Shown: in pieces, positions 26,939 through 44,593 of the stretch
Layout of the letters: the number at the start of each line of letters is the position of its first letter
Position numbering within the stretch: the first letter of the stretch is position 1
DNA from: Pseudoalteromonas spongiae UST010723-006
Lineage (GTDB): Bacteria > Pseudomonadota > Gammaproteobacteria > Enterobacterales > Alteromonadaceae
Assembly: GCF_000238255.3 (NCBI RefSeq)
Contig: NZ_CP011040.1
Span: forward strand, 496,001-560,000
Reading direction: 5' to 3'
DNA length: 64,000 bases
Translations under genes and position numbers: made by a program
Notes under the pieces: model-generated
What the model saw: the letters and a program-made list of their open reading frames with translations, nothing else
Databases searched by the model: none
Told to the model about the DNA's origin: nothing

Positions 26939-27027
26939 AACATGCTATTAACATGTCGTTAAATACAGTTATTTGAGTTAAAAATAGTCTAAAGTACGCA
27001 TAAATTTAACATTCTTGCGTTTTAGCA

Positions 27028-27056
27028 TTGCTTCTTTTGCGCAGTTTTTTTATAGT
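27028..27056 (+). promoter_or_regulatory. Candidate sigma70 promoter for the aryl polyene cluster
   Basis: TTGCTT and TATAGT are separated by exactly 17 bases and lie 22 bases before the first likely start codon of the cluster. This is the best promoter-like sequence between the hydrolase and the cluster. No obvious regulator-binding dyad was found nearby. Confidence 0.6.
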
Positions 27057-27077
27057 TTCGCCTCATTTTCAAACAAC

Positions 27078-27824
27078 ATGGACGCACATCACATGAAAAT
27101 GGTGCTCTCACATTTTAATTATTGGTGTAAAGCTAAGGACCAAGCACAGCTCGCCAACGCAAAAATTGAAATGTTTGATCCAACGAGCAAAAGCCCACAA
27201 TTGGATTGGGTTCCAGCAATGCAACGCCGACGACTCAGTCACTATGCAAAAATGGCGTTGTTTGTTGCAGCAAATAGCGCCGAGAAAAGTGGTGCAGAAT
27301 CGATGCCCGTTGTATTTGCATCGCAACATGGCGACTTTCACCGTACATCAAGTATTTTAAAAGATTTAGCTCACCAAGAAGTGATCAGCCCAACATCGTT
27401 TGGCCTATCTGTTCATAATGCAGTCATTGGGCTTTATTCGATTTTGACGAATAATCAACAGCCAATGAACAGTATTGCGGCTGGCGATAACACCCTGCTG
27501 ATGGCATTAATTGAAGCAAGCATTCAGTTAAATAACCCGAATATATCCGAAGTACTCGTTGTGTATTGCGATCAACCACTACCAGACGATTATGCACGAT
27601 TTGACGATGTGAATAGTTGTGATTTGGCGTGTGCATTTGTCGTATCTAAAGACAATGAAGATGGTATTACGCTGTCGTTAACTCCTAGCGATACGCCTAA
27701 CAATACACCGTTACAGGCAAAACAGTTTGTTGAATTTTTAGCGACAAACAAAACTAACGACGCGCTTGTGCTCGGTAGTCAAAGTGCATGGCACTTGCAT
27801 ATTGATGAGGTAACGCATTGTTAA
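27078..27824 (+). CDS. apeC: Aryl polyene chain-length factor (ketosynthase-like, no active Cys)
   Basis: A 248-residue protein of the short ketosynthase-like family (Ketoacyl-synt_2, PF13723) found first in aryl polyene clusters. It resembles the N-terminal half of a ketosynthase, but where the nucleophilic Cys should be it reads NSIAAGDNTLLMALIEAS, with no cysteine. It therefore probably acts as chain-length factor, partnering the downstream ketosynthase (39579). The ATG at 27078 is used; ATG at 27093 (MKMVLSHFNYW) fits the family N-terminus better and may be the real start. The upstream in-frame TTG at 27015 is unlikely because it would lie before the promoter. It overlaps the next gene by seven bases. 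Confidence 0.85.
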   Translation: MDAHHMKMVLSHFNYWCKAKDQAQLANAKIEMFDPTSKSPQLDWVPAMQRRRLSHYAKMALFVAANSAEKSGAESMPVVFASQHGDFHRTSSILKDLAHQEVISPTSFGLSVHNAVIGLYSILTNNQQPMNSIAAGDNTLLMALIEASIQLNNPNISEVLVVYCDQPLPDDYARFDDVNSCDLACAFVVSKDNEDGITLSLTPSDTPNNTPLQAKQFVEFLATNKTNDALVLGSQSAWHLHIDEVTHC

Positions 27825-28591
27825 CCAAGCTAGGACGCTGCTGGCGCATTGTCGCAACCGGATTTTGTTTTGCGGTGTTTGGCTTAGGTGGATTGTTAGT
27901 TCCGCTAATTGTATTGCCTATTCAGTACCTTATTTATCGCGATGAAGAAAAGCGCCGCAAGGCAGCGCGCTATACAGTGCATTTGCTGTTTAAGTTTTTT
28001 GTTGGCTTGATGGGCGCATTAGGAATCTTTAAATTCACTATTGCTGATCGAACTAAATTTGCCAATTTAACAGGCAAGTTAGTACTTGCTAATCACCCGA
28101 CCTTGATTGATGTTGTGGTACTTATTTCACTTATTCCCAATGCAGATTGTGTTGTTAAAGCACATTTATTTAGTAACCCATTTATGCGAGGTGTGATAAA
28201 ATCCACCGGTTATATAAGCAATGAAAGCCCTGAGGGCTTACTAACGGATTGTGCAGCATCACTTGCTGCGGGAAATAACTTGATCGTGTTTCCCGAGGGC
28301 ACTCGTACGACACCTGGTCAAGCGTTAAAATTTAAACGAGGCGCTGCAAATATCGCACTGCGCTGTCGTGCTGATATCGTTTCGGTGTTAATTCATGTTG
28401 CACCGTCAACGTTAACCAAGTCAGAAATGTGGTACGAAGTGGCGCCTACGCAGGCTAAATTTGATCTCGCAATGACGAAACAACAATTGCAATTACCCAG
28501 TTTTGAAGCGTCGAAATTGACGCAGCATGCGCGTAGTTTTACGCGCGATATGCAGGCATTTTTTCAAGGAGAATTAGACAGCTATGAGTGA
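27818..28591 (+). CDS. apeD: PlsC-like lysophospholipid acyltransferase of the aryl polyene cluster
   Basis: A 257-residue 1-acylglycerol-phosphate acyltransferase-family protein (LPLAT). An N-terminal membrane segment (FCFAVFGLGGLLVPLIVLPIQYLIY, ~14-38) is followed by the catalytic NHPTLID (HX4D-like, ~93), a substrate-binding FPEGTRTTPGQ at ~168 and a basic C-terminus. In aryl polyene clusters such enzymes are thought to attach the polyene, or an acyl chain, to a lipid carrier in the membrane. Its start lies inside the end of apeC and its end overlaps the ACP by eight bases, showing coupled translation. Confidence 0.85.
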   Translation: MLTKLGRCWRIVATGFCFAVFGLGGLLVPLIVLPIQYLIYRDEEKRRKAARYTVHLLFKFFVGLMGALGIFKFTIADRTKFANLTGKLVLANHPTLIDVVVLISLIPNADCVVKAHLFSNPFMRGVIKSTGYISNESPEGLLTDCAASLAAGNNLIVFPEGTRTTPGQALKFKRGAANIALRCRADIVSVLIHVAPSTLTKSEMWYEVAPTQAKFDLAMTKQQLQLPSFEASKLTQHARSFTRDMQAFFQGELDSYE

Positions 28592-28838
28592 TTTAAAAAT
28601 TAAAATCAAGAAGCTCATTATTGAATCATTAGATTTAGAAGATATTACCGTTGATGATATTAACGACAGCGAACCACTTTTTATTGATGGTTTGGGCCTT
28701 GATAGCATTGATGCGCTAGAGCTTGGCTTAGCGATTAAAAAAGAGTTTGATATTAAAATTGACGCAAACTCAGAAGAAACAAAGCAGCATTTTGCATCGG
28801 TTGATGCGTTAGCAGCGTTTATTGAACAAAACGCATAA
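28584..28838 (+). CDS. apeE: Acyl carrier protein 1 of the aryl polyene cluster
   Basis: An 84-residue acyl carrier protein. The phosphopantetheine-attachment serine is Ser41 in LGLDSIDALELGLA. It begins SDLKIKIKKLIIESLDLEDI and shows the usual four-helix length. It carries the growing polyene as a thioester. The second ACP gene is 13 bases downstream; both are kept in aryl polyene clusters, with one used in the main polyene assembly and the other of less certain use. I cannot tell from sequence which is which. Confidence 0.9.
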   Translation: MSDLKIKIKKLIIESLDLEDITVDDINDSEPLFIDGLGLDSIDALELGLAIKKEFDIKIDANSEETKQHFASVDALAAFIEQNA

Positions 28839-28851
28839 CAGCGGGTAGGGT

Positions 28852-29100
28852 ATGAAAACACAACAAGAAATCTTCGCAGTATTAACTGATATCTTGGTGG
28901 AAGAATTTGAAATAGATCAAGACGATATTTCGCTTGAGGCAAACCTTTATCAAGATTTAGATCTCGACAGTATTGATGCCGTTGATCTGGTAGTGAAATT
29001 GCGTGAAATCACAGGACAAAAGATTGATCCTGAAGCGTTTAAGCAAGTACGCACTGTAGAAGATGTGGTAAACGAAGTAAGCAAGTTGGTTTCAGCGTAA
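28852..29100 (+). CDS. apeF: Acyl carrier protein 2 of the aryl polyene cluster
   Basis: An 82-residue acyl carrier protein with the attachment serine Ser40 in LDLDSIDAVDLVVKL. It differs from ACP 1 over most of its length, so this is not a recent tandem copy. A GGGTAGGG ribosome site lies before the ATG. It is followed five bases later by the membrane protein gene. Confidence 0.9.
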   Translation: MKTQQEIFAVLTDILVEEFEIDQDDISLEANLYQDLDLDSIDAVDLVVKLREITGQKIDPEAFKQVRTVEDVVNEVSKLVSA

Positions 29101-29105
29101 AACAC

Positions 29106-29705
29106 ATGATAAAAGCAATACTGAATACAGTATTCATTGTATTATTACTGGCCTACCCAGTGCTTATTTATTTTGGCCTGCAGTATGCGAGTATTTCCAG
29201 TATTGCACCTGTTTTACTCATCGCCATTGTTGGTCGCTATGTATTTACACGGGCGGCCAGTAGCACCATGCCATGGCTTTTACCGGCAACGGTATTAGGC
29301 AGCGTATGTGTTGCATTGGCGTGGTTACTTGATAACAGCAAGGTTACTTTGTTTTACCCTGTGCTTATATCAGGCACTATGCTTGTCACGTTTGCGTATT
29401 CATTGTTCAAAGGGCCTACGGTGATAGAAACCTTTGCGCTACTCGATGAAAAACGTAAAAGCAAAGACAAGCAAAATGTAACATTACCAGAACATGTTAT
29501 TGCTTATACGCGAAATGTCACCAAAGTGTGGTGCCTATTCTTTAGCATTAATATTGCACTTGCATGTTACACCATATACCTTGGAGATATTGCGCTTTGG
29601 ACGCTATACAACGGATTGATTGCGTACATTTTAATGGGCGTACTAATGGCAGGTGAGTTACTTGTTCGTCATGTTGTAAAGCAGCGTCACGAGCTTAAGC
29701 ATTAA
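29106..29705 (+). CDS. apeG: Aryl polyene cluster membrane protein (COG4648 type)
   Basis: A 199-residue integral membrane protein with about five to six helices (ILNTVFIVLLLAYPVLIYFGL at 5-25, then ~30-48, 55-73, 80-98, and two between ~135 and 185). The C-terminal half includes NVTKVWCLFFSINIALACYTIY and LWTLYNGLIAYILMGVLMAGELLVR, a pattern found in COG4648 proteins encoded in aryl polyene clusters. Its role is unknown; possible roles are holding the assembly complex at the membrane or moving the lipid intermediate. It begins six bases after the ACP 2 stop and ends six bases before the ligase. Confidence 0.82.
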   Translation: MIKAILNTVFIVLLLAYPVLIYFGLQYASISSIAPVLLIAIVGRYVFTRAASSTMPWLLPATVLGSVCVALAWLLDNSKVTLFYPVLISGTMLVTFAYSLFKGPTVIETFALLDEKRKSKDKQNVTLPEHVIAYTRNVTKVWCLFFSINIALACYTIYLGDIALWTLYNGLIAYILMGVLMAGELLVRHVVKQRHELKH

Positions 29706-29711
29706 ATTAGT

Positions 29712-31025
29712 ATGCATACAACCAGCCCTTCGATTTTAGATAGAGATATCTGTGCTAATGCGGTAACGGCACTTGCCAATCAATTACGCGTGTTTAAACA
29801 GCAAACCGGTGCGCAGTCTTTGGTGTTATACCATGCTGCAAGTGATGTGTTTTTGGTACGTTTGCTCGCGGCCGCACATGCAGGTTTTGATGTTATATTT
29901 CCAGCCAACGGGCAGCCAGAAAATATCCAGATCGCCAGTGAAGATGCCGACTATGTGTTGGTAGATGAATTTAGTGGCGACAAACACCTTTCGCTTGACT
30001 CCCTTACTTTAACGGAATCGTTACAGCAATCTGCCGATGCGTTAACGCTACCAGAGTCTGGAAAACTTACATTTTATACTTCGGGCTCAACAGGTTACGG
30101 TAAGCCTGTGGTAAAGTCTTGGCAGCATATTAATGCTGAGCTTACAAATTTGTGCAATACCTTTGAATTTGATTCTGATTGCCAAATCGTTGCGACGGTA
30201 TCTCATCAGCACATTTATGGACTGCTATTTAAATTATTTTGGCCGTTACGTGCTAATTACACAGTAAACCTCACATTTGTTGAATTTCCTGAACAATTAC
30301 GCGCCTTAGTCGCGACACAGCCTTCGGTTATTATTACCAGTCCCGCATTTATTGACCGCCTTATACGCGACAATGTATGTGTTTCAGTTAAACACAATAT
30401 TGCGGGAGTATTTTCATCAGGCGGACCGCTTAGTGACAACAGTGCAGTGACCTTGGTTCAGCAATTGGGCGTTGCGGCGACGCAAATATATGGCAGCACT
30501 GAAACGGGCGGCATTGCGTATCGCCAAGTCTCTGAGTTTAAAACTGAACCATGGCAGTGCTTTGACGGTATAACGGTATTAAAGCATCAGCAGCAGCTGG
30601 CAGTTAAATCGCCTTATTTTGATGATGCAATGTTTGTCACTCAAGATTGTGGTGAGATTTTAGAAGACGGGCGCTTTAGTTTGTCCGGTCGTTTAGACCG
30701 CACCATTAAACTTGAAGAAAAACGCGTTAATTTAGATGCACTTGAGCGTGTATTAAGCGACGATAGTGCGATTACCCAGTGTAAAGTGGTTTTGTTAACG
30801 CACGGATTTCGCCAGCAACTTGGATTAGTTGCACAATTGTCTGCCGCTGGGCTTGGCGAATTGAATAAAAACGGTAAACTAGCGCTCAATAAGCGCTTAA
30901 AGCAAGTACTTGCTGGGCAGTTTGAGGCGGTGTGCATGCCACGTAAATTTCGTTATGTGGATGAGTTGCCAGTTAACAGCCAAGGTAAGTACGTATTTGC
31001 AGAATTGGAGAAGTTATTTGACTAA
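29712..31025 (+). CDS. apeH: AMP-dependent acyl-CoA/ACP ligase, aryl starter-loading
   Basis: A 437-residue adenylate-forming ligase. The ATP loop is FYTSGSTGYGK at 121-131, the adenine motif is QIYGSTETGGIAYR near 260, and the hinge/C-domain contains SGRLDRTIKLEEKRVNLDALE near 330. It is short compared with general acyl-CoA synthetases (500+), in line with aryl polyene ligases. In the studied system this enzyme activates an aromatic acid such as 4-hydroxybenzoate and loads it on an ACP. Here the ammonia-lyase in the same cluster could supply a cinnamate-type acid. It overlaps the dehydratase start by eight bases. Confidence 0.88.
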   Translation: MHTTSPSILDRDICANAVTALANQLRVFKQQTGAQSLVLYHAASDVFLVRLLAAAHAGFDVIFPANGQPENIQIASEDADYVLVDEFSGDKHLSLDSLTLTESLQQSADALTLPESGKLTFYTSGSTGYGKPVVKSWQHINAELTNLCNTFEFDSDCQIVATVSHQHIYGLLFKLFWPLRANYTVNLTFVEFPEQLRALVATQPSVIITSPAFIDRLIRDNVCVSVKHNIAGVFSSGGPLSDNSAVTLVQQLGVAATQIYGSTETGGIAYRQVSEFKTEPWQCFDGITVLKHQQQLAVKSPYFDDAMFVTQDCGEILEDGRFSLSGRLDRTIKLEEKRVNLDALERVLSDDSAITQCKVVLLTHGFRQQLGLVAQLSAAGLGELNKNGKLALNKRLKQVLAGQFEAVCMPRKFRYVDELPVNSQGKYVFAELEKLFD

Positions 31026-31374
31026 GTTACAAGAATCATTACCAGAAGTACGCGCCGTTGAAGAGCAAGACGATACGGTAAAACTCACTCTTTGGGTTGA
31101 CGGTAGTTTAGATTATTTTAACGGTCACTTTCCACAAGCACCGATTTTAGCCGGTGTTGTGCAGTTAGATTGGGCAGTAAAATACGCACAGCAATACTTT
31201 TCATTGAGTTCTGCGCTGGTTGATTCTGTTGAAGTATTGAAGTTTCAAGTGGTGATTGTTGCAAATTCAGAGGTTGAGCTGACTCTCACCAAGAAAAACG
31301 ACAACAAATTTACCTTTAGTTTTCACTCAGAACATGGTCAGCATTCATCAGGCCGTGTAGTGGTGCACTGCTAA
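31018..31374 (+). CDS. apeI: 3-hydroxyacyl-ACP dehydratase, hotdog fold (first)
   Basis: A 118-residue hotdog-fold dehydratase that removes water from the 3-hydroxyacyl-ACP during polyene formation. The key stretch is LDYFNGHFPQAPILAGVVQLDW, with the catalytic His in GHFPQAPILAGV as in FabZ. FabA/Z-type partner residues lie downstream (VDSVEVLKFQ). The TTG start at 31018 is proposed because it overlaps the ligase end and gives LTKLQESLPEV...; an in-frame ATG at 30910 would lie deep inside the ligase and is less likely. A second, unrelated-looking dehydratase is encoded at 40905, and heteromeric pairing is known for these enzymes. Confidence 0.82.
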   Translation: MTKLQESLPEVRAVEEQDDTVKLTLWVDGSLDYFNGHFPQAPILAGVVQLDWAVKYAQQYFSLSSALVDSVEVLKFQVVIVANSEVELTLTKKNDNKFTFSFHSEHGQHSSGRVVVHC

Positions 31375-31378
31375 CGTT

Positions 31379-32113
31379 ATGCACGCGTGTATTGTTATTC
31401 CAAATTATAATCATGTTGCTGTGATTGAATCGGTTCTAACGGAGCTAAGTGCCCTCGATTTACCGATTATTATGGTAAATGACGGCTCAACAGCGGATGC
31501 GAGCGCTGTCATGCGTCAATGCGAGTCTCAGTTTCCGTTATTAACTTTGATTGAACACAGTGAAAATCAGGGCAAAGGTGGCGCGGTACAAACTGGTTTA
31601 TTAACAGCCGATAAATTGGGTTATAGCCACGCAATACAAGTTGATGCAGATGGTCAACACGACCTAACCGATATTCAAACCTTAATCTACCTTGGCAAAA
31701 AGTATCCCGACAGCGTCATTAGCGGCCAGCCTATTTATGATGAATCTGTACCGAAAGTGCGTTTATACAGTCGTTACATTACTCATTTTTGGGTATGGAT
31801 TGAAACCTTATCGTTCAGTGTAAAAGATTCAATGTGTGGCTTTCGCTGTTATCCAGTGAAAGAAACGGCGGCACTGCTGCGTGATAAGCAGCTTGGCAAG
31901 CGCATGGATTTTGATATTGAAATCATGGTGCGCCTATTCTGGCGTGGTACGCCAAGTCGGTTTATGCCAACGAAAGTTATCTACCCAGAAGGCGGTAGCT
32001 CACACTTTCGCGCATTTGAAGATAACGTGCTAATCAGCTGGATGCACACACGCTTGTTTTTCGGCATGTTACCACGCATTCCATTACTGCTTTGGAGAAA
32101 ACTGCGTGGCTAA
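31379..32113 (+). CDS. Family 2 glycosyltransferase of the aryl polyene cluster
   Basis: A 244-residue GT2 glycosyltransferase resembling dolichol-phosphate mannosyltransferases. It has CIVIPNYNHVAVIESVL, VNDGSTAD and the metal-binding DXD-type VDADGQHD (~96-103), followed by QGKGGAVQTG. It has only a short hydrophobic C-terminus. In many aryl polyene clusters a glycosyltransferase and an acyltransferase are one fused protein (ApeJ); here they are two genes that overlap by eight bases. It may glycosylate the aryl polyene or its lipid anchor. The sugar is unknown. Confidence 0.85.
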   Translation: MHACIVIPNYNHVAVIESVLTELSALDLPIIMVNDGSTADASAVMRQCESQFPLLTLIEHSENQGKGGAVQTGLLTADKLGYSHAIQVDADGQHDLTDIQTLIYLGKKYPDSVISGQPIYDESVPKVRLYSRYITHFWVWIETLSFSVKDSMCGFRCYPVKETAALLRDKQLGKRMDFDIEIMVRLFWRGTPSRFMPTKVIYPEGGSSHFRAFEDNVLISWMHTRLFFGMLPRIPLLLWRKLRG

Positions 32114-33041
32114 ACATTGGTCGACAATGCAAGAGCGTGGTACCTTGCTTGGCATGCGCATTTTACTGGGCTTTTATCGCTTGGTTGGGCGTCGTGTATT
32201 GTGGTTAATGTTGTTTCCCGTGGTGTTTTATTTTTACTGCACAGGTAAAACGCAACGTGCGGCGAGCATCGCGTTTTTAAACCAAGTGGCTCAGCATAAC
32301 AATCAGCCAGTCAAAGCTGGTTTTTGGCAAGGGTTAAAACATTTTTGCAAATTTGCTGATTCAGCGTTTGATAAAATTGACGCGTGGCTTGGCAAAATCT
32401 CACTCGACGCCATTCAATATCAAAATCATGAAGAATTTGCTGAATTACAAAAAAGTAAGCAAGGCGCCATTTTCATTGGCTCTCATTTAGGTAATTTGGA
32501 AGTATGTAGGGCGCTCAGTCAAGGCCGTTACGCAGTAACTATAAACGTTTTAGTGTTTACCCATCATGCAGTTGAATTTAATAAGGTGCTGCAACAAATC
32601 AATGCCGATGCCAAAGTAAATCTCATCCAAGTTACGGACATGAGCCCAACCTTGGCGATTTTACTGAAACAAAAAATTGATGATGGCGAAGTAATAGTGA
32701 TTGTTGGTGACCGCACTAGCTCAAGCGTCGCTGGCAGGGTAAACTATTGTAATTTCATGGGTAAACCAGCACCGTTTTCACAAGGGCCATTTATTCTTGC
32801 GAGTTTACTCGAATGCCCGGTGTATTATTTATTTTGTTTAAAAGCGCATAACCGCTATTTAGTTATTTTTGAAAAAGTTGCGGATAAGTTAAAGTTTAGC
32901 CGTAAAACACGACAGCAGGATCTACAAACAACAATTCAGCATTTTTCAGATCGTCTGAGTTTTTTTGCGAGTCAGTATCCTTACCAATGGTTTAATTTTT
33001 ATGATTTTTGGACTGACGACAGTAAAGTCAGCCGAGATTAG
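32106..33041 (+). CDS. LpxL/HtrB-like acyltransferase of the aryl polyene cluster
   Basis: A 311-residue acyltransferase of the lipid A biosynthesis (LpxL/HtrB) family. An N-terminal membrane helix (LWLMLFPVVFYFYC, ~36-49) precedes the catalytic GSHLGNLEVCR (HX4E, His ~130) and the substrate motif IVGDRTSSS near 205. It likely transfers an acyl group to, or from, a glycolipid carrier of the aryl polyene. It overlaps the GT2 gene and probably corresponds to the second half of the fused ApeJ of other clusters. Its closeness to lipid A enzymes does not prove a role in LPS. Confidence 0.85.
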   Translation: MAKHWSTMQERGTLLGMRILLGFYRLVGRRVLWLMLFPVVFYFYCTGKTQRAASIAFLNQVAQHNNQPVKAGFWQGLKHFCKFADSAFDKIDAWLGKISLDAIQYQNHEEFAELQKSKQGAIFIGSHLGNLEVCRALSQGRYAVTINVLVFTHHAVEFNKVLQQINADAKVNLIQVTDMSPTLAILLKQKIDDGEVIVIVGDRTSSSVAGRVNYCNFMGKPAPFSQGPFILASLLECPVYYLFCLKAHNRYLVIFEKVADKLKFSRKTRQQDLQTTIQHFSDRLSFFASQYPYQWFNFYDFWTDDSKVSRD

Positions 33042-33054
33042 TTCGGAGTAAGAA

Positions 33055-34608
33055 GTGATTAATCAACAGCAAACAGGGCCACTGACATTCGGCCAAGGAC
33101 CGCTTTCAATTGAAGATATTGTCGCGATAGCAAAAGGACACACACAGGCTAAGCTGTCGAATGATACCGGATTTACTCAACGCATTGACGCAGGCGTTGC
33201 CTTTTTAGATAAATTACTCGCAGAAGACGGAGTAATTTACGGTGTAACAACTGGATACGGCGATTCCGTAACGCGCGCCGTACCCCTATCGCTAGTAAAT
33301 GAATTACCACTGCATTTAACGCGTTTTCACGGCTGTGGTTTAGGCGATGTATTTTCGAAAGAGCAGGGTCGCGCAATACTCGCGACCCGATTAAACTCTT
33401 TAGCACAAGGTTACTCGGGTGTTAGCTGGGATATGCTGACGCTGTTAAAAGAATACCTAAACCACGATGTTGTGCCTGTTATTCCACAAGAAGGTTCAGT
33501 GGGCGCAAGTGGTGATTTAACCCCACTTTCATACGTTGCCGGTGCCTTAGTTGGCGAACGCGATGTGTATTTTAATGGTGAAGTGGCAAATAGTGGCGAT
33601 GTGATGAAAGCCCTCAACCTAACGCCGCTTACGTTAAGACCTAAAGAAGGCTTGGCGATTATGAATGGTACGGCGGTGATGACAGCTCTTGCATGTCTTG
33701 CTTACGACCGCGCCGAATACCTTGTCAAACTTGCGACTCGCCTTACGTCACTTGCGAGCTTAGGGTTAATGGGAAATTCACACCATTTCGATGATATTTT
33801 ATTCTCGGTAAAACCGCATGCAGGGCAACAACAAGTGGCGGCTTGGATCCGTGACGACCTAAATTATCATACTCACCCGCGCAATGCCGACCGTCTACAA
33901 GACCGTTATTCTATTCGCTGTGCGCCGCACATTATTGGCGTGCTAGCAGATACCTTACCTTGGTTACGTCAGTTAATTGAAAACGAGCTAAACTCGGCAA
34001 ACGATAACCCAATTATTGATGGTATTGGTGAACACGTGTTGCACGGAGGTCATTTTTACGGTGGCCATATTGCAATGGCAATGGATACGCTGAAAACGGC
34101 GGTTGCTAACTTAGCTGATTTAGCCGACCGTCAAATTGCGTCATTAGTTGATAGTAAGTTTAACAATGGCTTGCCAAGTAACTTATCAAATGGCGACCCA
34201 GAGCGTCAGTACATTAACCATGGTTTTAAAGCTGTGCAAATTGGCGCATCTGCATATACTGCTGAAGCGTTAAAACTAACAATGCCGGCAAGTGTATTCT
34301 CTCGTTCTACTGAATGTCATAACCAAGATAAAGTGAGCATGGGCACCATTGCAGCGCGTGACGCACTGCGCGTTATTCAATTAACAGAGCAAGTATTAGC
34401 AAGTACGTTGTTAGCGTCAATTCAAGCATTACGTATTCGTAAAGAGCGCGGCGAAGTTGATGCCGACAGTCTTGCCAATGGATTAACCGAAATGTATCAA
34501 GACATTACTGGTTATTTCCCGAATCTTGATGAAGACCGCCCGCTTGAGCGTACTTTGCGTGACACAGTCGATGCAATTCAACAGCAGAAATGGAAGTTAT
34601 ATGAATAG
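33055..34608 (+). CDS. Aromatic amino-acid ammonia-lyase (HAL/PAL/TAL, MIO enzyme)
   Basis: A 517-residue MIO-dependent lyase that removes ammonia from an aromatic amino acid to give an acrylic acid, here probably cinnamate or 4-coumarate for the aryl starter. The MIO tripeptide Ala-Ser-Gly is at 151-153 (GSVGASGDLTPLSYVAG), the catalytic Tyr is Tyr62 (VIYGVTTGYGD), and ENELNSANDNPII supplies active-site residues near 310. The substrate-selecting pair in LTRFHGCG is Phe91-His92, mixing PAL-like and HAL-like residues. The gene starts with GTG. It has no hut neighbours, and lies between glycolipid and thioesterase genes, so histidine degradation is unlikely. Confidence 0.9.
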   Translation: MINQQQTGPLTFGQGPLSIEDIVAIAKGHTQAKLSNDTGFTQRIDAGVAFLDKLLAEDGVIYGVTTGYGDSVTRAVPLSLVNELPLHLTRFHGCGLGDVFSKEQGRAILATRLNSLAQGYSGVSWDMLTLLKEYLNHDVVPVIPQEGSVGASGDLTPLSYVAGALVGERDVYFNGEVANSGDVMKALNLTPLTLRPKEGLAIMNGTAVMTALACLAYDRAEYLVKLATRLTSLASLGLMGNSHHFDDILFSVKPHAGQQQVAAWIRDDLNYHTHPRNADRLQDRYSIRCAPHIIGVLADTLPWLRQLIENELNSANDNPIIDGIGEHVLHGGHFYGGHIAMAMDTLKTAVANLADLADRQIASLVDSKFNNGLPSNLSNGDPERQYINHGFKAVQIGASAYTAEALKLTMPASVFSRSTECHNQDKVSMGTIAARDALRVIQLTEQVLASTLLASIQALRIRKERGEVDADSLANGLTEMYQDITGYFPNLDEDRPLERTLRDTVDAIQQQKWKLYE

Positions 34609-37809: not shown

Positions 37810-39053
37810 AGGTAGAAAAAGTTGATGTAGTTGTAATTGGTGCAGGTCCTTCAGGCGCAGTTGCAAGTAGTTTATTAAATAAACAAGGAAAAAAGGTTGT
37901 CGTGCTTGAGCGTGAAACATTCCCACGCTTTTCAATTGGCGAGAGCTTATTACCTCAGTGCATGACCTATTTAGCTGAAGCTGGCTTAGTTGATAGTTTA
38001 AATTCACAAGCGGATGCACTTGGCTTTCAGTTTAAAAATGGTGCCGCATTTGAAAAATCAGGCGAACACACCTTTTTCGACTTTACCGATAAATTTACCG
38101 AAGGACCGGGTACTACGTTTCAAGTAAAACGTGCAGACTTTGATAAATTACTTGCCGATGGTGCAGCGCAGCAAGGGGTTACAATTCGTTATCGTCATAC
38201 TGTAATTGAAGTGACTGAACACGCAGATTTTATGCGTTTAATTGTGATTGACCAAAGCGGTGAAACCTACACGGTTGAGGCAAAATTTGTATTAGACGCA
38301 AGCGGCTTTGGTCGCGTGTTACCGCGTTTACTCGATTTAGAAAAACCGTCAAAATTCCCGGTGCGCAGTTCTTATTTCACGCATGTTGAAGACAATATTG
38401 ATGATGCTAACTTTGATCGCAATAAAATTCTAATTACTGTTCATCCAGAGCATTCAGATGTGTGGTATTGGTTAATTCCATTTTCAGATGGTACGGCAAG
38501 TATTGGTGTAGTAATTGAGCCTGAAAAAGTTGTGGCAGCTGAGCGCGAACACCAAGAGATTTTGTTTGATTATATCAATCAAGTACCCAACTTATCTCAA
38601 TTACTAAAAAATGCCAAAGCGATTGCACCTGCGCGCCAAATTAAAGGCTATTCAGCGGACGTAACACGTTTACATGGCGAGCGTTTTGCACTGTTAGGCA
38701 ATGCTGGTGAGTTCCTAGATCCTGTATTTTCAAGTGGCGTAACCATTGCACTTCGCTCTGCGTGTTTAATTGCACCTGTGGTAAATGATTTGCTCGATGG
38801 CAAAGAAGTAGATCTTGCTACACAATATGCAGATCCGCTTAAGCAAGGTGTTGATTGCTTTAAAACCTTTGTTACCGCGTGGTATGACGGTCGTTTCCAA
38901 GACGTTATCTTCCATAAAGAGCAAGATCCGCAAATCAGACAAATGGTATGCTCAATTCTTGCTGGTTATGCGTGGGATACAAGTAATCCATACGTTGCGC
39001 ATAGCGAGCGTCGTTTAGATGTATTAGCGAAGTTATGCAAAGAGTATCAGTAA
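37806..39053 (+). CDS. Flavin-dependent halogenase-like / geranylgeranyl reductase-like oxidoreductase
   Basis: A 415-residue FAD protein. FAD fingerprint VVVIGAGPSGAVASSLL (GxGxxG at 12-17), then RETFPRFSIGESLLP, an FAD-binding pattern shared by tryptophan/phenolic halogenases and geranylgeranyl reductases. It also has WYWLIP at 220-225, matching the halogenase WxWxIP motif, and Lys77 (GFQFKNGA) at the place of the catalytic halogenase lysine. It is shorter than tryptophan halogenases (about 500-540) but similar to phenol/pyrrole halogenases. Halogenase, or a polyene/aryl oxidoreductase, are both possible. It lies in the middle of the aryl polyene operon, so the substrate is probably an ACP-bound or free aryl polyene intermediate. 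Confidence 0.75.
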   Translation: MKVEKVDVVVIGAGPSGAVASSLLNKQGKKVVVLERETFPRFSIGESLLPQCMTYLAEAGLVDSLNSQADALGFQFKNGAAFEKSGEHTFFDFTDKFTEGPGTTFQVKRADFDKLLADGAAQQGVTIRYRHTVIEVTEHADFMRLIVIDQSGETYTVEAKFVLDASGFGRVLPRLLDLEKPSKFPVRSSYFTHVEDNIDDANFDRNKILITVHPEHSDVWYWLIPFSDGTASIGVVIEPEKVVAAEREHQEILFDYINQVPNLSQLLKNAKAIAPARQIKGYSADVTRLHGERFALLGNAGEFLDPVFSSGVTIALRSACLIAPVVNDLLDGKEVDLATQYADPLKQGVDCFKTFVTAWYDGRFQDVIFHKEQDPQIRQMVCSILAGYAWDTSNPYVAHSERRLDVLAKLCKEYQ

Positions 39054-39577
39054 CCTTACTAATACTGTGTTTATTGGTAGTAGGTTGTTCAAGTGCACAC
39101 CGTATTGATACGGTGTCGCTTGATCACGAAATTCACTATAAATTACAAGCAGTACCTGAAAGTTGGCCAAAAATGTCTGCATTGCAATTGGTCACAGTAA
39201 CACGGGGTGATGAGGAAAATACCTTGTTGTTACAAAGCGAACGTTCCGAGCAGCAACTCAATTTAGTTGCGCTAACAGCGCAAGGAATAAGTTTATTCTC
39301 ATTATCGCTGTTCAAAGACGGTAATTATCACGTTGAAAACCATTTACCCGGCATTAATTTGTACCCAAGCCATATGCTAGCCGATATGCAATTGGCAACA
39401 TGGCCGCTTACAAATGTAAAGCAAGGGCTACTTGGTGCATCCATTACGCAGCAGCAAGACGCACGCATTATTAGCGACCTAAATGGCGAGGTAATGCGCA
39501 TTCGCTACACAGACACCACTACGACAATTACCCACATGCGTCGTCACTACACAATCACTATCGAAGAGATAAACTAA
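39035..39577 (+). CDS. apeN: DUF3261 lipoprotein of the aryl polyene cluster
   Basis: A 180-residue DUF3261 lipoprotein, a family found mainly in aryl polyene clusters. Signal with lipobox (LLILCLLVVGCSSA, lipidated Cys18). The mature region has conserved DTVSLDHEIHYKL-like and DEENTLLLQSERSEQQLNLVALTAQGISLFSLSL stretches and ends IEEIN. It has the length and strand pattern of a LolB-like outer-membrane receptor for the exported polyene, though no function is established. It overlaps the flavoprotein gene by 19 bases and ends one base before the ketosynthase. Confidence 0.83.
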   Translation: MQRVSVTLLILCLLVVGCSSAHRIDTVSLDHEIHYKLQAVPESWPKMSALQLVTVTRGDEENTLLLQSERSEQQLNLVALTAQGISLFSLSLFKDGNYHVENHLPGINLYPSHMLADMQLATWPLTNVKQGLLGASITQQQDARIISDLNGEVMRIRYTDTTTTITHMRRHYTITIEEIN

Positions 39578-39578
39578 T

Positions 39579-40754
39579 ATGGCAATCGGTTTAAATGACT
39601 TAGGGCTTGTTTGTAGCCTAGGCGACAGTAAGCAAAGTGTGATGGCAGCACTGTCAAACAGTGAATTATCACCGCCGCAATTACTGACCAAATTTGATAA
39701 ACCGGGCAATGACGGAACTGAATTTTTTGTCGGTGCTGTAAGCGCAACGTTACCAGAAATTTGCGAACCACATTTTAATACGCGCAATAATCAATTGTTG
39801 TTAACCGCGTTCAAACAAATTGAGCAAACATTTTCAGCGCTAACAAAACAATTTGAAAAACAACGTATTGCCATTGTTTTAGGCACCAGCACTAGCGCTA
39901 TTAGTGAAGGCGAAAGCGCCTATCAGCAATTTACAGATGCGGGTGATTACCCAGCGCATTTTAATTATCGTCAGCAAGAATTACACGCGCCAAGTGAATA
40001 TTTAGCGCATATTACGGGTGCGAGTGGCCCTTGTTACACCATTTCAACAGCCTGTAGCTCAAGCGGTAAAGCATTAGTCAGTGCGCGCGGTTTAATTGAA
40101 TCGGGTATCGCAGATGTGGTGCTTTGTGGCGGCGTAGATAGTTTATGTAAAATGACCTTAAATGGTTTTAAAGCGCTTGAATCGACCGCAGCTGAATACT
40201 GTAAACCGTTTCACAGCGAGCGTGATGGTATTAATATTGGCGAGGCAGCGGCACTTTTTGTGATGAGTAAACAGCCTGCTACTGTGCGTTTATGTGGTGC
40301 AGGTGAAAGCTCTGATGCGTATCATGTTTCAGCGCCTGAACCGTCTGGCCGTGGTGCGATTGCAAGCATGACGAAAGCCTTGCAAGACGCAGGTATCGAT
40401 GCCAAAGAGATTGGTTACATTAACGCCCATGGTACCGGCACACCGAAAAACGATGAAATGGAAGCGAATGCCATTCATACTCTTGGTTTTGATTGTTTAG
40501 TGAGTTCAACCAAAGGTGTTACCGGTCATACGCTTGGTGCGGCTGGGGCATTGGAAGCGGGGATCTGTTGGTTGCTACTAAGTGATTTCAATAAAGGCGA
40601 GATTATTCCTGCCAATTACCCCGTAGCGGAACTGGATGAAAAACTTTCGCCAATTAGACTCGCAGCATCGAATTCTTCTGGTAAAATACGCTTTTGTTTA
40701 TCCAACTCGTTTGCGTTTGGTGGCAATAATGTGTCACTTGTTTTTGGTAATTAG
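39579..40754 (+). CDS. apeO: Aryl polyene ketosynthase (main condensing enzyme)
   Basis: A 391-residue beta-ketoacyl-ACP synthase with a complete Cys-His-His set: Cys159 (TISTACSSSGKAL), His284 (INAHGTGTPKNDE) and His317 (STKGVTGHTLGAAG). It probably forms the heterodimer with the cysteine-less chain-length factor and condenses malonyl units on the aryl starter. It is shorter than FabF (about 413) and lacks the usual N-terminal VVVTGxG. A 150-base gap with an internal hairpin follows it, whereas all other cluster junctions are tight. Confidence 0.9.
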   Translation: MAIGLNDLGLVCSLGDSKQSVMAALSNSELSPPQLLTKFDKPGNDGTEFFVGAVSATLPEICEPHFNTRNNQLLLTAFKQIEQTFSALTKQFEKQRIAIVLGTSTSAISEGESAYQQFTDAGDYPAHFNYRQQELHAPSEYLAHITGASGPCYTISTACSSSGKALVSARGLIESGIADVVLCGGVDSLCKMTLNGFKALESTAAEYCKPFHSERDGINIGEAAALFVMSKQPATVRLCGAGESSDAYHVSAPEPSGRGAIASMTKALQDAGIDAKEIGYINAHGTGTPKNDEMEANAIHTLGFDCLVSSTKGVTGHTLGAAGALEAGICWLLLSDFNKGEIIPANYPVAELDEKLSPIRLAASNSSGKIRFCLSNSFAFGGNNVSLVFGN

Positions 40755-40847
40755 CGCATCAACGGAAAAACACCGAATTAAAAATGTAACGCTAGGCACC
40801 TGTGCTAATTACTAAGTGCCAGCGCAAGTAAACTCGATTAAGTGCTC

Positions 40848-40864
40848 ACGCCCTATTTGGGCGT
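40848..40864 (+). terminator. Internal hairpin in the aryl polyene operon, possible attenuator
   Basis: A six-base stem ACGCCC / GGGCGT with a TATTT loop is followed by TGTTTATTTT on the + strand. It is in the only long gap of the cluster, between the first ketosynthase and the second dehydratase, and could reduce read-through into the last four genes. Confidence 0.45.
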
Positions 40865-40904
40865 TGTTTATTTTGCACCCTTAATCCGAAACTTAGGTTA
40901 ATTC

Positions 40905-41360
40905 ATGACACATTATTCGATTGAAGCGGTGCTTCCTCACGCCGACCCAATGATCTTACTCACTCGCTTGGTGAGCTATGATCAAGACTCTGCAGTTTGC
41001 GAGGTCGATATCTCTGCACAATCAGCGTTTTTTAACGAACAAACTCAATCAGTTGCAAGTTACATTGGTACTGAATATATGGCACAATCTATCGCAGCAT
41101 ACGCAGGTGCTTTAGCACTCGATGACAATGCTGCGGTTAAAATTGGATTTTTAATTGGTTCGCGTAAATATAAGACATTTACTCCTGAGTTTACGCTAGG
41201 GCAGACGTTAGCTGTTTCGGTTAAAAAACTGTTTCAAGAAGAAACAGGGTTAAGTGTATTTGAATGCCAAATTCTGCATGCAGATACGGTTCTTGCTGAA
41301 GCTAAAATCAATGTCTTTCAACCAGATGATCCTGTGCAGTTTTTAAAGGAACAACAATGA
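40905..41360 (+). CDS. apeP: 3-hydroxyacyl-ACP dehydratase, hotdog fold (second)
   Basis: A 151-residue hotdog-fold dehydratase (FabA/Z-like or 3-hydroxydecanoyl-ACP dehydratase-like of aryl polyene clusters). It contains IEAVLPHADPMILLTRLVSYDQDSAVCEVDIS and YIGTEYMAQSIAAYAGALA, the latter aligning with the active-site helix. The FabZ-type catalytic His motif is replaced by LPHADPMILL (His12), as in its family. It probably pairs with the first dehydratase. An overlap of four bases with the ketoreductase (ATGA) shows coupling. Confidence 0.85.
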   Translation: MTHYSIEAVLPHADPMILLTRLVSYDQDSAVCEVDISAQSAFFNEQTQSVASYIGTEYMAQSIAAYAGALALDDNAAVKIGFLIGSRKYKTFTPEFTLGQTLAVSVKKLFQEETGLSVFECQILHADTVLAEAKINVFQPDDPVQFLKEQQ

Positions 41361-42082
41361 CAAAACGTGTATTAGTAACTGGCTCAAGTCGCGGAATTGG
41401 CAAGGCCATCGCATTAAGATTGGCCGAAGACGGATTCGATATTACGCTTCATTGCCGCAGTGGCATTGACGCGGCAATGCAAGTAAAAGAACAAATAGAA
41501 GCACTTGGCCGTCACGTTAGCCTTGTTCAATTTGACGTATGTGACCGTAAAAAAACGCAGCAAGCATTGCTTGCGGATGTCGAAGCCCATGGAGCGTATT
41601 ATGGCGTTGTCTGCAATGCCGGTGTAACACGCGATACTGCCTTTCCTGCAATGACAGGTGAAGAGTGGGATGAAGTATTAACCACAGGATTAGATGGTTT
41701 TTACAACGTAGTGCAACCTTTGGTGATGCCGATGATCCAAACTCGTAAAGGCGGCCGCATTATCACTATGGCGTCGGTATCGGGCATTGCAGGTAACCGT
41801 GGTCAGGTTAACTATAGCGCAGCAAAAGCGGGTTTAATTGGTGCAACTAAGGCACTGGCGCTGGAAGTGGCAAAACGTAAAATTACAGTAAATTGCGTCG
41901 CACCGGGTTTAGTTGCAACCGATATGGTTGATGATTTACCAGTCGATGAGATTTTAAAAATGGTACCTATGCGCCGTATGGCAGAGCCAAAAGAAGTGGC
42001 GGGTACAGTGGCATTTTTAATGTCAGATGACGCTGCCTATATTACGCGTCAGGTTATTTCGGTAAATGGTGGGTTAGTTTAG
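41357..42082 (+). CDS. apeQ: 3-oxoacyl-ACP reductase (FabG-like) of the aryl polyene cluster
   Basis: A 241-residue short-chain dehydrogenase/reductase. NADPH motif TGSSRGIG (8-15), structural CNAGV (86-90), catalytic Ser140-Tyr153-Lys157 (MASVSGIAGNRGQVNYSAAKAG), and FabG-like C-terminus APGLVATDM. It reduces the 3-oxo-acyl intermediate during each elongation cycle. Length matches FabG (244). It overlaps the upstream dehydratase by four bases and the downstream ketosynthase by one. Confidence 0.93.
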   Translation: MTKRVLVTGSSRGIGKAIALRLAEDGFDITLHCRSGIDAAMQVKEQIEALGRHVSLVQFDVCDRKKTQQALLADVEAHGAYYGVVCNAGVTRDTAFPAMTGEEWDEVLTTGLDGFYNVVQPLVMPMIQTRKGGRIITMASVSGIAGNRGQVNYSAAKAGLIGATKALALEVAKRKITVNCVAPGLVATDMVDDLPVDEILKMVPMRRMAEPKEVAGTVAFLMSDDAAYITRQVISVNGGLV

Positions 42083-43305
42083 TGAAACGCGTTGTTGTAA
42101 CAGGAATGTCTGCGATTACTGCGCTAGGCGATGATTGGCAAACGTTTAAAAGTGCCTTAAAAACAGGTGAAAACGCAGTAGAGACAATGCCAGATTGGAC
42201 ATTTATTAATGGCTTAAATACCAATTTGGGCGCGCCAGTGAAGCATTTTGAAAAGCCTAAGCATTATTCACGCAAAAAGATCCGTTCAATGGGACGGGTA
42301 TCACTTATGGCAACGCGCGCAACAGAATTAGCTCTCGAACAAGCTGGCCTTTTAGAGCACCCATCGTTGACTAATGGCGATACAGGTATCGCGTACGGCT
42401 CATCAATCGGGTCTACTGCGCCGCTTATTCCATTTGGCCGCATGATGGACAGTGGCGAAATGACGGGTGTGACAGCAACGAGTTATATTCAAATGATGGC
42501 GCATACCGCGCCAGTTAACGTGGGCGTATTTTTTGGCTTAAAAGGCCGTGTTATTACGACAAGCTCGGCATGTACATCGGGTTCACAAGGTTTGGGCTAT
42601 GCCTTTGAGGCGATTAAATTTGGTCGTCAAAAGCTAATGGTGGCCGGTGGCGCAGAAGAGCTGTGTGTAACCGAAGCTGCAGTATTTGATACCTTGTACG
42701 CAACCAGCTGCAAAAATGACACGCCAAAACAAACCCCACGCCCGTTTGATAAAGACCGTGATGGCCTAGTGATTGGTGAAGGTGCATGTACCTTTATTTT
42801 AGAAGAGTTAGAACACGCACAAGCGCGTGGCGCACATATTATTGCCGAAATTGTTGGCTTTGGCTGTAATTCAGACGGGCAACATGTAACCCAACCAACC
42901 AGCGAAACCATGCAAGTGGCGATTGAGCAAGCAATTGCCGAGGCGGGTATAGAAAAATCTCAAATTGGTTACGTGAATGCTCACGGCACTTCAACTGACC
43001 GTGGTGACATTGCTGAATCTCATGCAACTTTCAATGCGTTAGGTAAGGTGCCGATTAGTTCGTTAAAGAGTTATTTAGGACACACCTTAGGCGCGTGCGG
43101 CGCTATTGAAGCGTGGGCGAGCATTCATATGATGCAAGACAATTGGTTTGGTGGCACGACGAACTTAGATAATGTCGACCCAGAATGTGCGCCACTCGAT
43201 TACTTAAATGTAGAGGGGCGTGAAATCAACACCGATTATGTGATGAGTAACAACTTTGCGTTTGGTGGGATCAATACCTCGTTAATCTTCAAACGCTGGT
43301 CGTAA
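42082..43305 (+). CDS. apeR: Second ketosynthase of the aryl polyene cluster
   Basis: A 407-residue ketosynthase of the KAS I/II type with complete residues Cys164 (TTSSACTSGSQGL), His301 (YVNAHGTSTDRGD) and His334 (SYLGHTLGACGAIE), and C-terminal NNFAFGGINTSL. The start is GTG, overlapping the ketoreductase stop by one base. In studied aryl polyene systems the second ketosynthase is needed for product formation but its exact step (starter extension, or making a fatty chain for the lipid anchor) is less certain. Confidence 0.92.
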   Translation: MKRVVVTGMSAITALGDDWQTFKSALKTGENAVETMPDWTFINGLNTNLGAPVKHFEKPKHYSRKKIRSMGRVSLMATRATELALEQAGLLEHPSLTNGDTGIAYGSSIGSTAPLIPFGRMMDSGEMTGVTATSYIQMMAHTAPVNVGVFFGLKGRVITTSSACTSGSQGLGYAFEAIKFGRQKLMVAGGAEELCVTEAAVFDTLYATSCKNDTPKQTPRPFDKDRDGLVIGEGACTFILEELEHAQARGAHIIAEIVGFGCNSDGQHVTQPTSETMQVAIEQAIAEAGIEKSQIGYVNAHGTSTDRGDIAESHATFNALGKVPISSLKSYLGHTLGACGAIEAWASIHMMQDNWFGGTTNLDNVDPECAPLDYLNVEGREINTDYVMSNNFAFGGINTSLIFKRWS

Positions 43306-43308
43306 ATC

Positions 43309-44112
43309 ATGTTGATGCGATGGATTGCACTTAGCTTGCTGTTTATCTCAACACTCAGTGTTGCCGATGAAGTCACGTTTGGTATTGGCGCGTTTTATTC
43401 ATCGCTCCCGCATTATTTAGGCGCGGAACAAAACGAAAGTTATATGGTGCCGCTGCCGTACATTCACATTGAGAAAGAACACTATAAAGTAGAGCGCAAC
43501 GAATTCGAATCATTTTATGAAGTTGCAACTAATCATTATATTAGTGTCAGTGCAGGTGGTGCCATTGCCGTATCAAGTAAAGATAATCGTGCCCGCGAAG
43601 GCATGGACGACCTTGCCTGGGTCGGCGAAATAGGCCCAAGCTATCAATATTTTAGTTTTGGTAATCCTACCTCAGACGACTATTTATATATTTCACCTTT
43701 TATTCGAAAAGCGTACGCATTTGATGGCGGAGATATTGACGATATCGGCAGTGTGTATGGCGTTATGCTAGAGGCGGGGCAGCAGATTTATCAAGACGGT
43801 CCGCATCAGGTAAACCTTACTGGACGTTTTAGTACCCGTTTTGGCAGCCATGCATACAACAGCTACTTTTATCACGTTGCTGAACAATTTCAAACAATTG
43901 ACCGTTTGTCTTTTGATGCTGATGCGGGTTATCTTGCATCGGTATTTAGTTTAGGATTAACTTACGATAACGATTGGCTTTGGGCCGGCGGTTTTCTTCG
44001 TTATTATAATTATTCACACAGTGCAAATCAGCAAAGTCCCCTGTTGCGTGATAATCACAACGTTGCACTTGGTTTTGGCTTTGCATGGAAGTTTTATTCA
44101 TTAAAAAATTAG
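43309..44112 (+). CDS. MipA/OmpV-family outer-membrane protein
   Basis: A 267-residue outer-membrane barrel of the MipA/OmpV family. A signal peptide (MLMRWIALSLLFISTLSVADE, cut after SVA near 18) is followed by the family start FGIGAFYSSLPHYLGAEQNESYMVPLPYIHI and a ladder of aromatic-ended strands. The end is AFGFAWKFYSLKN, an atypical barrel terminus. An alternative ATG at 43315 removes two residues. It begins three bases after the second ketosynthase, so it is in the same operon. Some family members scaffold peptidoglycan enzymes, but here it may serve display or stability of the pigment in the outer membrane. Confidence 0.83.
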   Translation: MLMRWIALSLLFISTLSVADEVTFGIGAFYSSLPHYLGAEQNESYMVPLPYIHIEKEHYKVERNEFESFYEVATNHYISVSAGGAIAVSSKDNRAREGMDDLAWVGEIGPSYQYFSFGNPTSDDYLYISPFIRKAYAFDGGDIDDIGSVYGVMLEAGQQIYQDGPHQVNLTGRFSTRFGSHAYNSYFYHVAEQFQTIDRLSFDADAGYLASVFSLGLTYDNDWLWAGGFLRYYNYSHSANQQSPLLRDNHNVALGFGFAWKFYSLKN

Positions 44113-44121
44113 GGAGAAGTA

Positions 44122-44550
44122 ATGAAAAAATTAATTCTTGGTGTTTCGCTTGCACTTGCTGCAAGTACTGCAACGGCGCGTGATGATATTGGTCGTTACT
44201 CGGTTGAAGAGCTACTAAGCACAGCAAAAGCTGAGCAAGCGCTTGATCCAAACATTAAACTATTTTTTGGTAAGCAAAAAGCGGGCGAAGTAAAGTCAAC
44301 TTACGGTGAAGTGCAAACCAATAAAAAAACCAACGCGTTCAACAAAAGCGATAAAGAAGCGTGCCAATGGGTAATGCTTAGCGCATTGAAATCATTACAA
44401 GAGCGCGCGCGTAGAGAAGGCATGAATGCCGTAATGAATATCAGTTCGTACTACAAAAAACGCGAATTTGTAAGTGATACTGAATTTGAATGTGGCGCAG
44501 GTTTTGTAATGGCCGGTGTGACATTAAAAGGTGATTTGGTTAAACTATAA
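44122..44550 (+). CDS. Small periplasmic protein, often labelled excinuclease-like
   Basis: A 142-residue protein with a signal peptide ([19 protein letters not shown], cut after ATA near 19). The mature part includes [14 protein letters not shown] and [30 protein letters not shown], ending in [20 protein letters not shown], a fold like YbjQ/heavy-metal-binding domain proteins. Databases often name such proteins excinuclease ATPase subunit, which is misleading because no ATPase or UvrA motif is present. Two cysteines could form a disulphide. It starts nine bases after the MipA gene with GGGAGAAG as ribosome site and closes the aryl polyene operon before a strong terminator. Confidence 0.72.
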
Positions 44551-44568
44551 GAGTTCAACCATTCTTTA

Positions 44569-44593
44569 AAAAAAGCCCGTTTAGGGCTTTTTT
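44569..44593 (+). terminator. Terminator at the end of the aryl polyene operon
   Basis: A ten-base stem AAAAAAGCCC / GGGCTTTTTT with loop GTTTA, ending in a U run. It lies 18 bases after the last cluster gene. Confidence 0.85.

Follow-up and report, generated by a model that had tools for sequence, protein, structure and literature searches.

The 64,000-nucleotide stretch of Pseudoalteromonas spongiae UST010723-006 analysed here (the window, C2:496001-560000, whose own positions serve as coordinates) holds at 27015-43305 what is almost certainly a complete aryl polyene (APE) cluster, apparently of the marine gammaproteobacterial, Vibrio fischeri-like type. We hold with good confidence the wider reading that this cluster is primed by an ammonia-lyase encoded within it and that its product carries a ring perhaps halogenated instead of methylated. 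The cluster appears to belong to an already known kind of system, and the prediction drawn from its sequence is a tyrosine-derived, unmethylated, perhaps brominated membrane polyene. Genome-wide searches covered the 4.75 Mb genome in two contigs.

Evidence for an aryl polyene cluster

Nineteen co-directional genes run on the + strand from the ApeC-like gene to the ApeR-like gene, with neighbours overlapping or a few bases apart at every junction except one. All 16 proteins from ApeC to ApeR of Escherichia coli Nissle find their best window match in identical order (tblastn), and ApeJ matches two neighbouring genes, so that apeJ is split. The APE core is represented by matches to ApeO and ApeC, ApeR, ApeQ, ApeI/ApeP, two acyl carrier proteins (ACPs) and the ApeH ligase, and the lipid attachment and export genes by ApeD, J, L, M and N; functions follow the listing for E. 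coli CFT073 (PMC8253772). The ApeI-like and ApeP-like Pfam models and the NCBIfam models NF006618 and NF006587 all score above cut-off. The gene of a 4-methylideneimidazole-5-one (MIO) ammonia-lyase separates apeJ from apeK and that of a flavin enzyme apeM from apeN, both on the same strand, and two further genes (43309-44550), for a MipA protein and a small exported-looking protein, follow the 19-gene set. E. coli ApeA is without a match in the window. The features are as follows.

27015..27824, +: apeC-like chain-length factor; start TTG 27015 or ATG 27078; E. coli ApeC 31% over 140 residues, E 2e-16; PF13723 192.6 bits
27818..28591, +: apeD-like lysophospholipid acyltransferase; ApeD 38%, E 1e-64
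28584..28838, +: apeE-like acyl carrier protein; ApeE 64% over 66 residues; PF00550
28852..29100, +: apeF-like acyl carrier protein; ApeF 56%; NF003757 125.6 bits (cut-off 65)
29106..29705, +: apeG-like membrane protein; ApeG 36%, E 7e-34; no Pfam match above cut-off
29712..31025, +: apeH-like aryl acid adenylating enzyme (acyl-ACP ligase); ApeH 30%, E 4e-48; top NCBIfam match TIGR02372, 4-coumarate-CoA ligase, 98.3 bits, well under the 334.7 cut-off
31018..31374, +: apeI-like dehydratase; PF22818 (ApeI-like) 56.2 bits (cut-off 28.5); probable start TTG 31018 by eye, open frame from 30910
31379..32113, +: N-terminal half of apeJ, GT2 glycosyltransferase; ApeJ 8-242, 57%
32106..33041, +: C-terminal half of apeJ, LpxL-like acyltransferase; ApeJ 247-549, 41%; PF03279 26.3 bits (cut-off 22.3)
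33055..34608, +: MIO-type aromatic amino acid ammonia-lyase, probably a tyrosine lyase; PF00221 543.7 bits (cut-off 27.3); ASG, RFHGCG, NQDKVSMG
34601..35032, +: apeK-like 4HBT thioesterase; ApeK 49%, E 2e-47; PF13279; probable start ATG 34601, open frame from 34526
35025..35564, +: apeL-like LolA chaperone; ApeL 25%, E 4e-9; TIGR00547 30.9 bits, below the cut-off of 112; no Pfam match
35548..37809, +: apeM-like MMPL/RND exporter; ApeM 26%, E 6e-39; PF03176 30 bits (cut-off 20.5)
37806..39053, +: flavin adenine dinucleotide (FAD) enzyme of the flavin-dependent halogenase kind (AltN-like); PF04820 Trp_halogenase 77.8 bits (cut-off 21)
39035..39577, +: apeN-like DUF3261 protein; PF11659 107.8 bits; ApeN 27%, E 9e-7
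39579..40754, +: apeO-like ketosynthase; ApeO 43%, E 2e-93; NF006618 472.8 bits (cut-off 407); in the tree
40905..41360, +: apeP-like dehydratase; PF22817 (ApeP-like) 79.8 bits (cut-off 27)
41357..42082, +: apeQ-like ketoreductase; ApeQ 56%, E 8e-104; NF004200 402.7 bits (cut-off 273)
42082..43305, +: apeR-like ketosynthase; ApeR 62%; NF006587 721 bits (cut-off 470); tree support 99/100
43309..44112, +: MipA/OmpV-family protein; PF06629 75.2 bits (cut-off 24.2); operon end
44122..44550, +: small protein with a signal-like start; no Pfam match even at E<=10
44568..44595, +: likely intrinsic terminator; hairpin and T tract, by eye

In a tree of 23 ketosynthases, including three others of the same genome and two of alterochromide type, the ApeR-like protein clusters with ApeR of E. 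coli and seven other loci (support 99/100). A weakly supported branch (44/74; recovered in 45% of bootstrap trees) sets the nine ApeO-like proteins apart from the rest. The three other ketosynthases of this genome and the two alterochromide-type ones fall outside both groups, some on long branches that leave their exact place unsure. This phylogeny, chosen beforehand as a test that could refute the assignment, thus keeps both ketosynthases with those of APE clusters, ApeR strongly and ApeO weakly. The ApeR-like protein is 99% identical to its counterpart in Pseudoalteromonas sp. P1-9.

A preliminary description of this DNA had claimed a complete APE cluster of eighteen or nineteen co-directional genes in the order C to R. 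The ordered ApeC-R matches and the tree bear out the former, and the count comes to 19 with all 16 E. coli proteins in order. The start it placed at 27028 is out of frame with the ApeC-like gene, which opens with TTG 27015 and has an ATG further on, at 27078. A 150-base gap with a small hairpin (40755-40904) separates the ApeO-like gene from the ApeP-like one and is apparently common to a near-identical locus (L048) and not to another (L003), as judged from tblastn coordinates.

The predicted pathway and its product

In the pathway we propose, the lyase would deaminate tyrosine to 4-coumarate, the reaction of FlxA in flexirubin and of AltA in alterochromide synthesis, and the ApeH-like enzyme would load the acid on the ApeE/F carrier. 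ApeO-ApeC, ApeQ and ApeI/P would then extend the coumaroyl starter to an aryl polyene, which ApeD and the split ApeJ would place on a lipid and ApeM/L/N would export in lipid-bound form to the outer membrane. The flavin enzyme would act on the phenol ring in place of the methyltransferase of E. coli; halogenation would be its most likely reaction, bromide being present in sea water. The expected pigment would be a yellow polyene bound to lipid, with a 4-hydroxyphenyl head that lacks methyls on the ring and may carry bromine there.

The APE steps of E. coli and Xenorhabdus start from 4-hydroxybenzoate (PMC8253772). By the chemistry of the pathway, 4-coumarate should be equivalent to 4-hydroxybenzoate plus one vinyl unit; because both would give the same 4-hydroxyphenyl polyene series, the tyrosine route would change the source of the arene and not its identity. 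The preliminary description had suggested that the product may have a different aromatic head; its link from the lyase to such a head does not follow, as a tyrosine lyase leads to the same series as 4-hydroxybenzoate. The head would be altered only by a phenylalanine lyase, or by lost methylation and possible halogenation. What would be unusual in this cluster is the absence of ApeB together with the presence of the flavin enzyme.

No report of a lipid-bound brominated aryl polyene was noticed in literature listings. Titles and abstract openings gave no ammonia-lyase in a proteobacterial APE cluster, although most full texts lie outside that scope and one may be reported; nor did they give a halogenase in such a cluster save for work on xanthomonadin and alterochromides, and this too may be reported.

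The flavin enzyme and the ring methyltransferase

The claim that the cluster lacks a recognisable methyltransferase stood up to both searches made: methyltransferase families are absent from the Pfam matches of the 19 genes, and a tblastn search with E. coli ApeB finds nothing in the window at E<=0.01 or in the genome at E<=1e-20. ApeB is the likely ring methyltransferase (PMC8253772).

Our preference, a slight one, is that the flavin enzyme is a halogenase. It has GxGxxG and WxWxIP motifs, and behind its closest solved relative, 3nix (350 bits), come the halogenases 3e1t, 5buk and 8zop (146-150 bits) and others. In five alignments, the lysine of its FQFKNG motif (Lys77) falls on a lysine in 3nix, 3e1t, 5buk and 8zop, the 5dbj alignment being shifted there; we take this residue to be the catalytic lysine of halogenases. 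All 168 aligned rows (the window, 47 loci and the best 120 of 8000 matches) retain Lys77 and WxWxIP; these rows were chosen for similarity, as were those of the lyase alignment below, so that conservation is partly expected. The GNAGEFLDPVFSSG block is kept as well, and these features are largely common to an AltN-like protein (genome G073, locus L094) that is 39% identical over 412 residues (E 5e-98), has the same lysine and WxWLIPF, and adjoins large open frames of an alterochromide-like locus. Its label rests on gene order and the text of a review (PMC5577590). According to that review, deletion of altN removes only the brominated alterochromides, so that the namesake enzyme is needed for bromination, and deletion of altA stops production, which coumaric acid restores. 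Bromination, rather than another oxidation, would be the expected reaction.

An alternative of appreciable though lesser probability is that the flavin enzyme works on the chain or the ring as a dehydrogenase, reductase or hydroxylase, against which stand the halogenase residues just described and their overlap with the AltN-like enzyme. Several observations favour it and weigh against halogenation: 3nix, deposited as "flavoprotein/dehydrogenase", scores more than twice as high as any halogenase; no NCBIfam halogenase model passes its cut-off; and the matches to CmlS (158 bits) and to TIGR02032, a geranylgeranyl reductase family (124 bits), both stay under cut-off. Of the three genomes with alterochromide-like loci, fetched in part, one gave the AltN-like match, while the parts from G009 and G031 gave none, and in a tree of the FAD enzymes the AltN-like row sits on a very long branch (4.9) that makes its placement unsure.

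The distribution of the flavin enzyme was surveyed in 295 sampled genomes of the order, where "near" denotes the same contig within 30 kb of an ApeR-type synthase. ApeR-type synthases occur in 132 of these (E<=1e-120), close lyases in 92 (E<=1e-180), the flavin enzyme in 68 (E<=1e-100) and ApeB relatives in 81 (E<=1e-20). Near the 132 synthases lie 90 lyases, 57 flavin enzymes and 65 ApeB relatives. The preliminary description had singled out the lyase and the flavin enzyme as two insertions relative to the E. coli layout; both are indeed present, and at these frequencies (90/132 and 57/132) neither is special.

Flavin enzyme and ApeB occur together near 16 synthases, the flavin enzyme only near 41, ApeB only near 49 and neither near 26, a negative association (odds ratio 0.21, Fisher p 2.4e-5) that is not corrected for kinship. 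A strict swap of the methyltransferase for the flavin enzyme was rejected on account of the 16 genomes with both, and stands as a tendency. This overlap counts against the proposed replacement of methylation, as do 10 genomes whose flavin enzyme is distant from the cluster or on a separate contig. By pattern, lyase and flavin enzyme are combined without ApeB in 28 of the 132 and with a distant ApeB in 10; ApeB stands alone in 23, none of the three is found in 14, and 15 show other arrangements. Lyase and ApeB are both near the synthase in the remaining 42 (18 without a flavin match, 8 with a distant one and 16 with all three); therefore, lyase and methylation are independent. Fourteen of the 16 genomes with all three belong to one Vibrio-type family (f21), which includes G172, a genome whose lyase shares 99% identity with one of Vibrio kanaloae.

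Some relatives of both tailoring enzymes lie apart from APE clusters. Stray flavin-enzyme relatives occur in G225, G121, G323 and eight other genomes, 10 distant from the synthase and one (G134) in a genome without a synthase match; the first three (L118, L119, L120) are 54-57% identical and have no ape gene match in the fetched stretch. They could be either moved tailoring genes or genes with another use. In 10 genomes of family f6, the APE cluster includes the flavin enzyme and an ApeB-like methyltransferase is found at a distance from it or on a separate contig; in G320 (L125) no other ape gene match lies within 15 kb of it.

The position of the flavin enzyme varies among 20 fetched loci: between M and N in three, after R in one and beside a divergent ApeB in one. 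Among these loci, L113 contributed O to R alone, while L110 and L117 are E. coli-like in layout, but without ApeB within the stretch.

The ammonia-lyase and the source of the starter

The lyase, a full-length PF00221 protein with the ASG triad, probably prefers tyrosine and very probably feeds this APE pathway. Two of its motifs were compared over 173 rows (52 locus proteins, among them the second PF00221 gene of the genome and the window gene again; the best 120 of 8000 matches; and the window). Motif 1 is Phe-His in 168 rows, Tyr-His in four and different in one, the second gene of the genome; the second motif is NQDKVSMG in 172 rows, including the window lyase.

The points against a tyrosine preference centre on motif 1. 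The pocket of the window lyase is Phe-His (RFHGCG), its Phe aligns with the Phe of 2nyn, titled phenylalanine/histidine ammonia-lyase, and Phe at this position is classically a sign of phenylalanine ammonia-lyases. The lyases of three alterochromide-like loci, 40-41% identical to that of the window, have Tyr-His there, with NQD. A phenylalanine lyase, whose cinnamate would prime a phenyl polyene that the flavin enzyme hydroxylates or otherwise oxidises on the ring, would also fit the related flavin families, which include monooxygenases such as QhpG (107.9 bits, below the cut-off of 240), and the flavoaffinins of a Clostridium are polyenes with phenylalanine-derived heads (PMC11839114). We regard this alternative as rather unlikely. 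In the cases compared, an x-His pair combined with NQ went with tyrosine, as in the tyrosine aminomutase 2ohy (Ser-His), in FlxA and in the alterochromide-type lyases (Tyr-His), and the flavin enzyme keeps its halogenase residues. FlxA has a histidine-like motif 1, yet is by assay a tyrosine lyase with 1010-fold specificity, and its authors state that the substrate cannot be predicted from sequence alone (PMC3992019). The window lyase scores 353.2 bits on the FlxA equivalog model, short of the cut-off of 700. The combination of FH and NQ is contrary to the histidine type and compatible with either a tyrosine or a phenylalanine preference. The active site of MIO lyases is shared between chains, and single-chain models would not settle the choice between the two.

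That the cluster still starts from 4-hydroxybenzoate, like those of E. coli and Xenorhabdus, while the lyase serves another need and merely travels with the cluster, seems improbable. It gains from the chorismate lyase (PF04345) present in the genome, which should make 4-hydroxybenzoate available and weighs against tyrosine as the source, and from the ApeH-like ligases, whose sequence does not tell clusters with the lyase from those lacking it: TIGR02372 scores are 82-107 bits in five with the lyase and 71-107 in five without. With the ranges of these 10 proteins overlapping, the ligase score was dropped as a readout of the starter. A role of the lyase in compensating for a missing chorismate lyase was likewise rejected, PF04345 being present. 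Against a mere travelling companion stands the fixed position of the lyase, between J and K in all 12 lyase-bearing loci of the 20 fetched and in all five same-genus loci laid out alongside. Moreover, the 92 genomes with a close lyase all have an ApeR-type synthase (within 30 kb in 90, on different contigs in the other two), which speaks for a lyase belonging to the pathway; none of the 163 sampled genomes lacking an ApeR-type match has a close lyase.

A histidine lyase paralogue for catabolism, the label such proteins often bear in their sources, is hardly credible: a separate PF00221 gene at C2:21003-22373 scores higher (606.8 against 543.7 bits) and encodes QEDHVSMG, whose Glu marks histidine lyases, where the window lyase has NQDKVSMG, and the latter is therefore not of that kind.

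Within the genus, 60 of 108 genomes have a lyase match at E<=1e-100, 42 of them of the close kind (at least 70% identical; one partial) and 20 of a 41-44% kind, with two having both. The latter kind thus occurs in about a fifth of the genomes (20/108), and three fetched examples (G073, G009 and G031; L084-L086) look like alterochromide pathways, with lyase, ACP, ligase, ketosynthase and reductase present. APE clusters have been described in ten of 21 Pseudoalteromonas genomes, with an APE-resorcinol hybrid in three strains (PMC9966250).

The survey suggests that, in this order, an aromatic amino acid lyase forms part of the cluster in most sampled genomes with an ApeR-type synthase (90/132), and an AltN-like flavin enzyme in 57, whether or not the methyltransferase is there as well. 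Tentatively, the head of APE pigments in marine gammaproteobacteria may be set by exchangeable parts, namely a tyrosine lyase and either ApeB or an AltN-like brominase, sometimes both, the window representing the brominase type. If this is true, brominated aryl polyenes bound to lipid would be products of many Alteromonadales and a marine counterpart of xanthomonadin. The survey also predicts where among marine bacteria to expect membrane polyenes that are halogenated or derived from tyrosine.

Flanking genes and signals

The two genes after apeR recur in related loci. Of 25 Pseudoalteromonas loci, 19 have a match to the MipA/OmpV-family protein (43309-44112) after their ApeR-like gene, and it is possible that this protein is an envelope partner of the pigment. 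Copies of the small protein (44122-44550), 62-100% identical, lie downstream in 22 of the 25. Among the 295 genomes of the order it occurs in 33, all but one of them (32) also carrying the ApeR-type synthase, with 13 of the 33 copies within 30 kb of it (counted by eye); related stretches (34-42%) occur in 11 or so Xanthomonadales-type APE loci. Just upstream of the cluster, on the same strand, lies an alpha/beta hydrolase gene with DUF915/DUF676 matches (25712-26938).

The preliminary description had also proposed a main promoter and a terminator. The pattern scan listed no sigma-70-like site between 26938 and 27028 and gave 29 promoter sites in the region against 41.3 in shuffles, fewer than by chance, so the promoter is not confirmed. 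The terminator fares better, as a hairpin with a T tract is visible by eye at about 44568-44595, but it is absent from the list of the pattern scan.

Relation to known pigment pathways

The E. coli APE cluster (apeA-R) shares with the window the order from ApeC to ApeR, and the window differs from it in lacking apeA and apeB, in its split apeJ and in having a MIO lyase and a flavin enzyme besides. A published comparison places the clusters of two strains, Pseudoalteromonas MB41 and Vibrio MA64, closest to the "flexirubin-like" APE class of V. fischeri, and its figure also shows that of P. lipolytica (PMC10286705). The P. lipolytica loci L020 and L023 resemble the window in that both lyase and flavin enzyme stand alongside the same synthase. 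The gene order of the window recurs in a Vibrio-type locus (L108), which has the lyase between J and K but also carries ApeA and ApeB on the opposite strand, adjoining the flavin enzyme.

Xanthomonadin is, like the predicted product, an aryl polyene with a halogenase gene, but its likely precursor is 3-hydroxybenzoate, which needs XanB2 (PMC3691225). Loci of Luteibacter, Rhodanobacter and Dyella type gave no lyase or flavin match at E<=1e-4 within the fetched 10 kb flanks, no Xanthomonas locus being included. In the flexirubin pathway of Bacteroidota (flxA-Y), a tyrosine lyase and a coumarate ligase start the aryl polyene, as proposed here (PMC3992019); the window differs in that its lyase misses the FlxA cut-off and no cluster gene passes a dialkylresorcinol family cut-off. 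The alterochromide pathway (altA-N) converts tyrosine to coumarate, proceeds through ACP, condensation, reduction and dehydration, and has a bromination gene for its phenol-ended chain (PMC5577590). Alterochromide-like loci share with the window a homologous lyase in three cases and the flavin enzyme in one. The alterochromide pathway differs in joining its polyene to a peptide, and the ketosynthases of this type form a separate branch.

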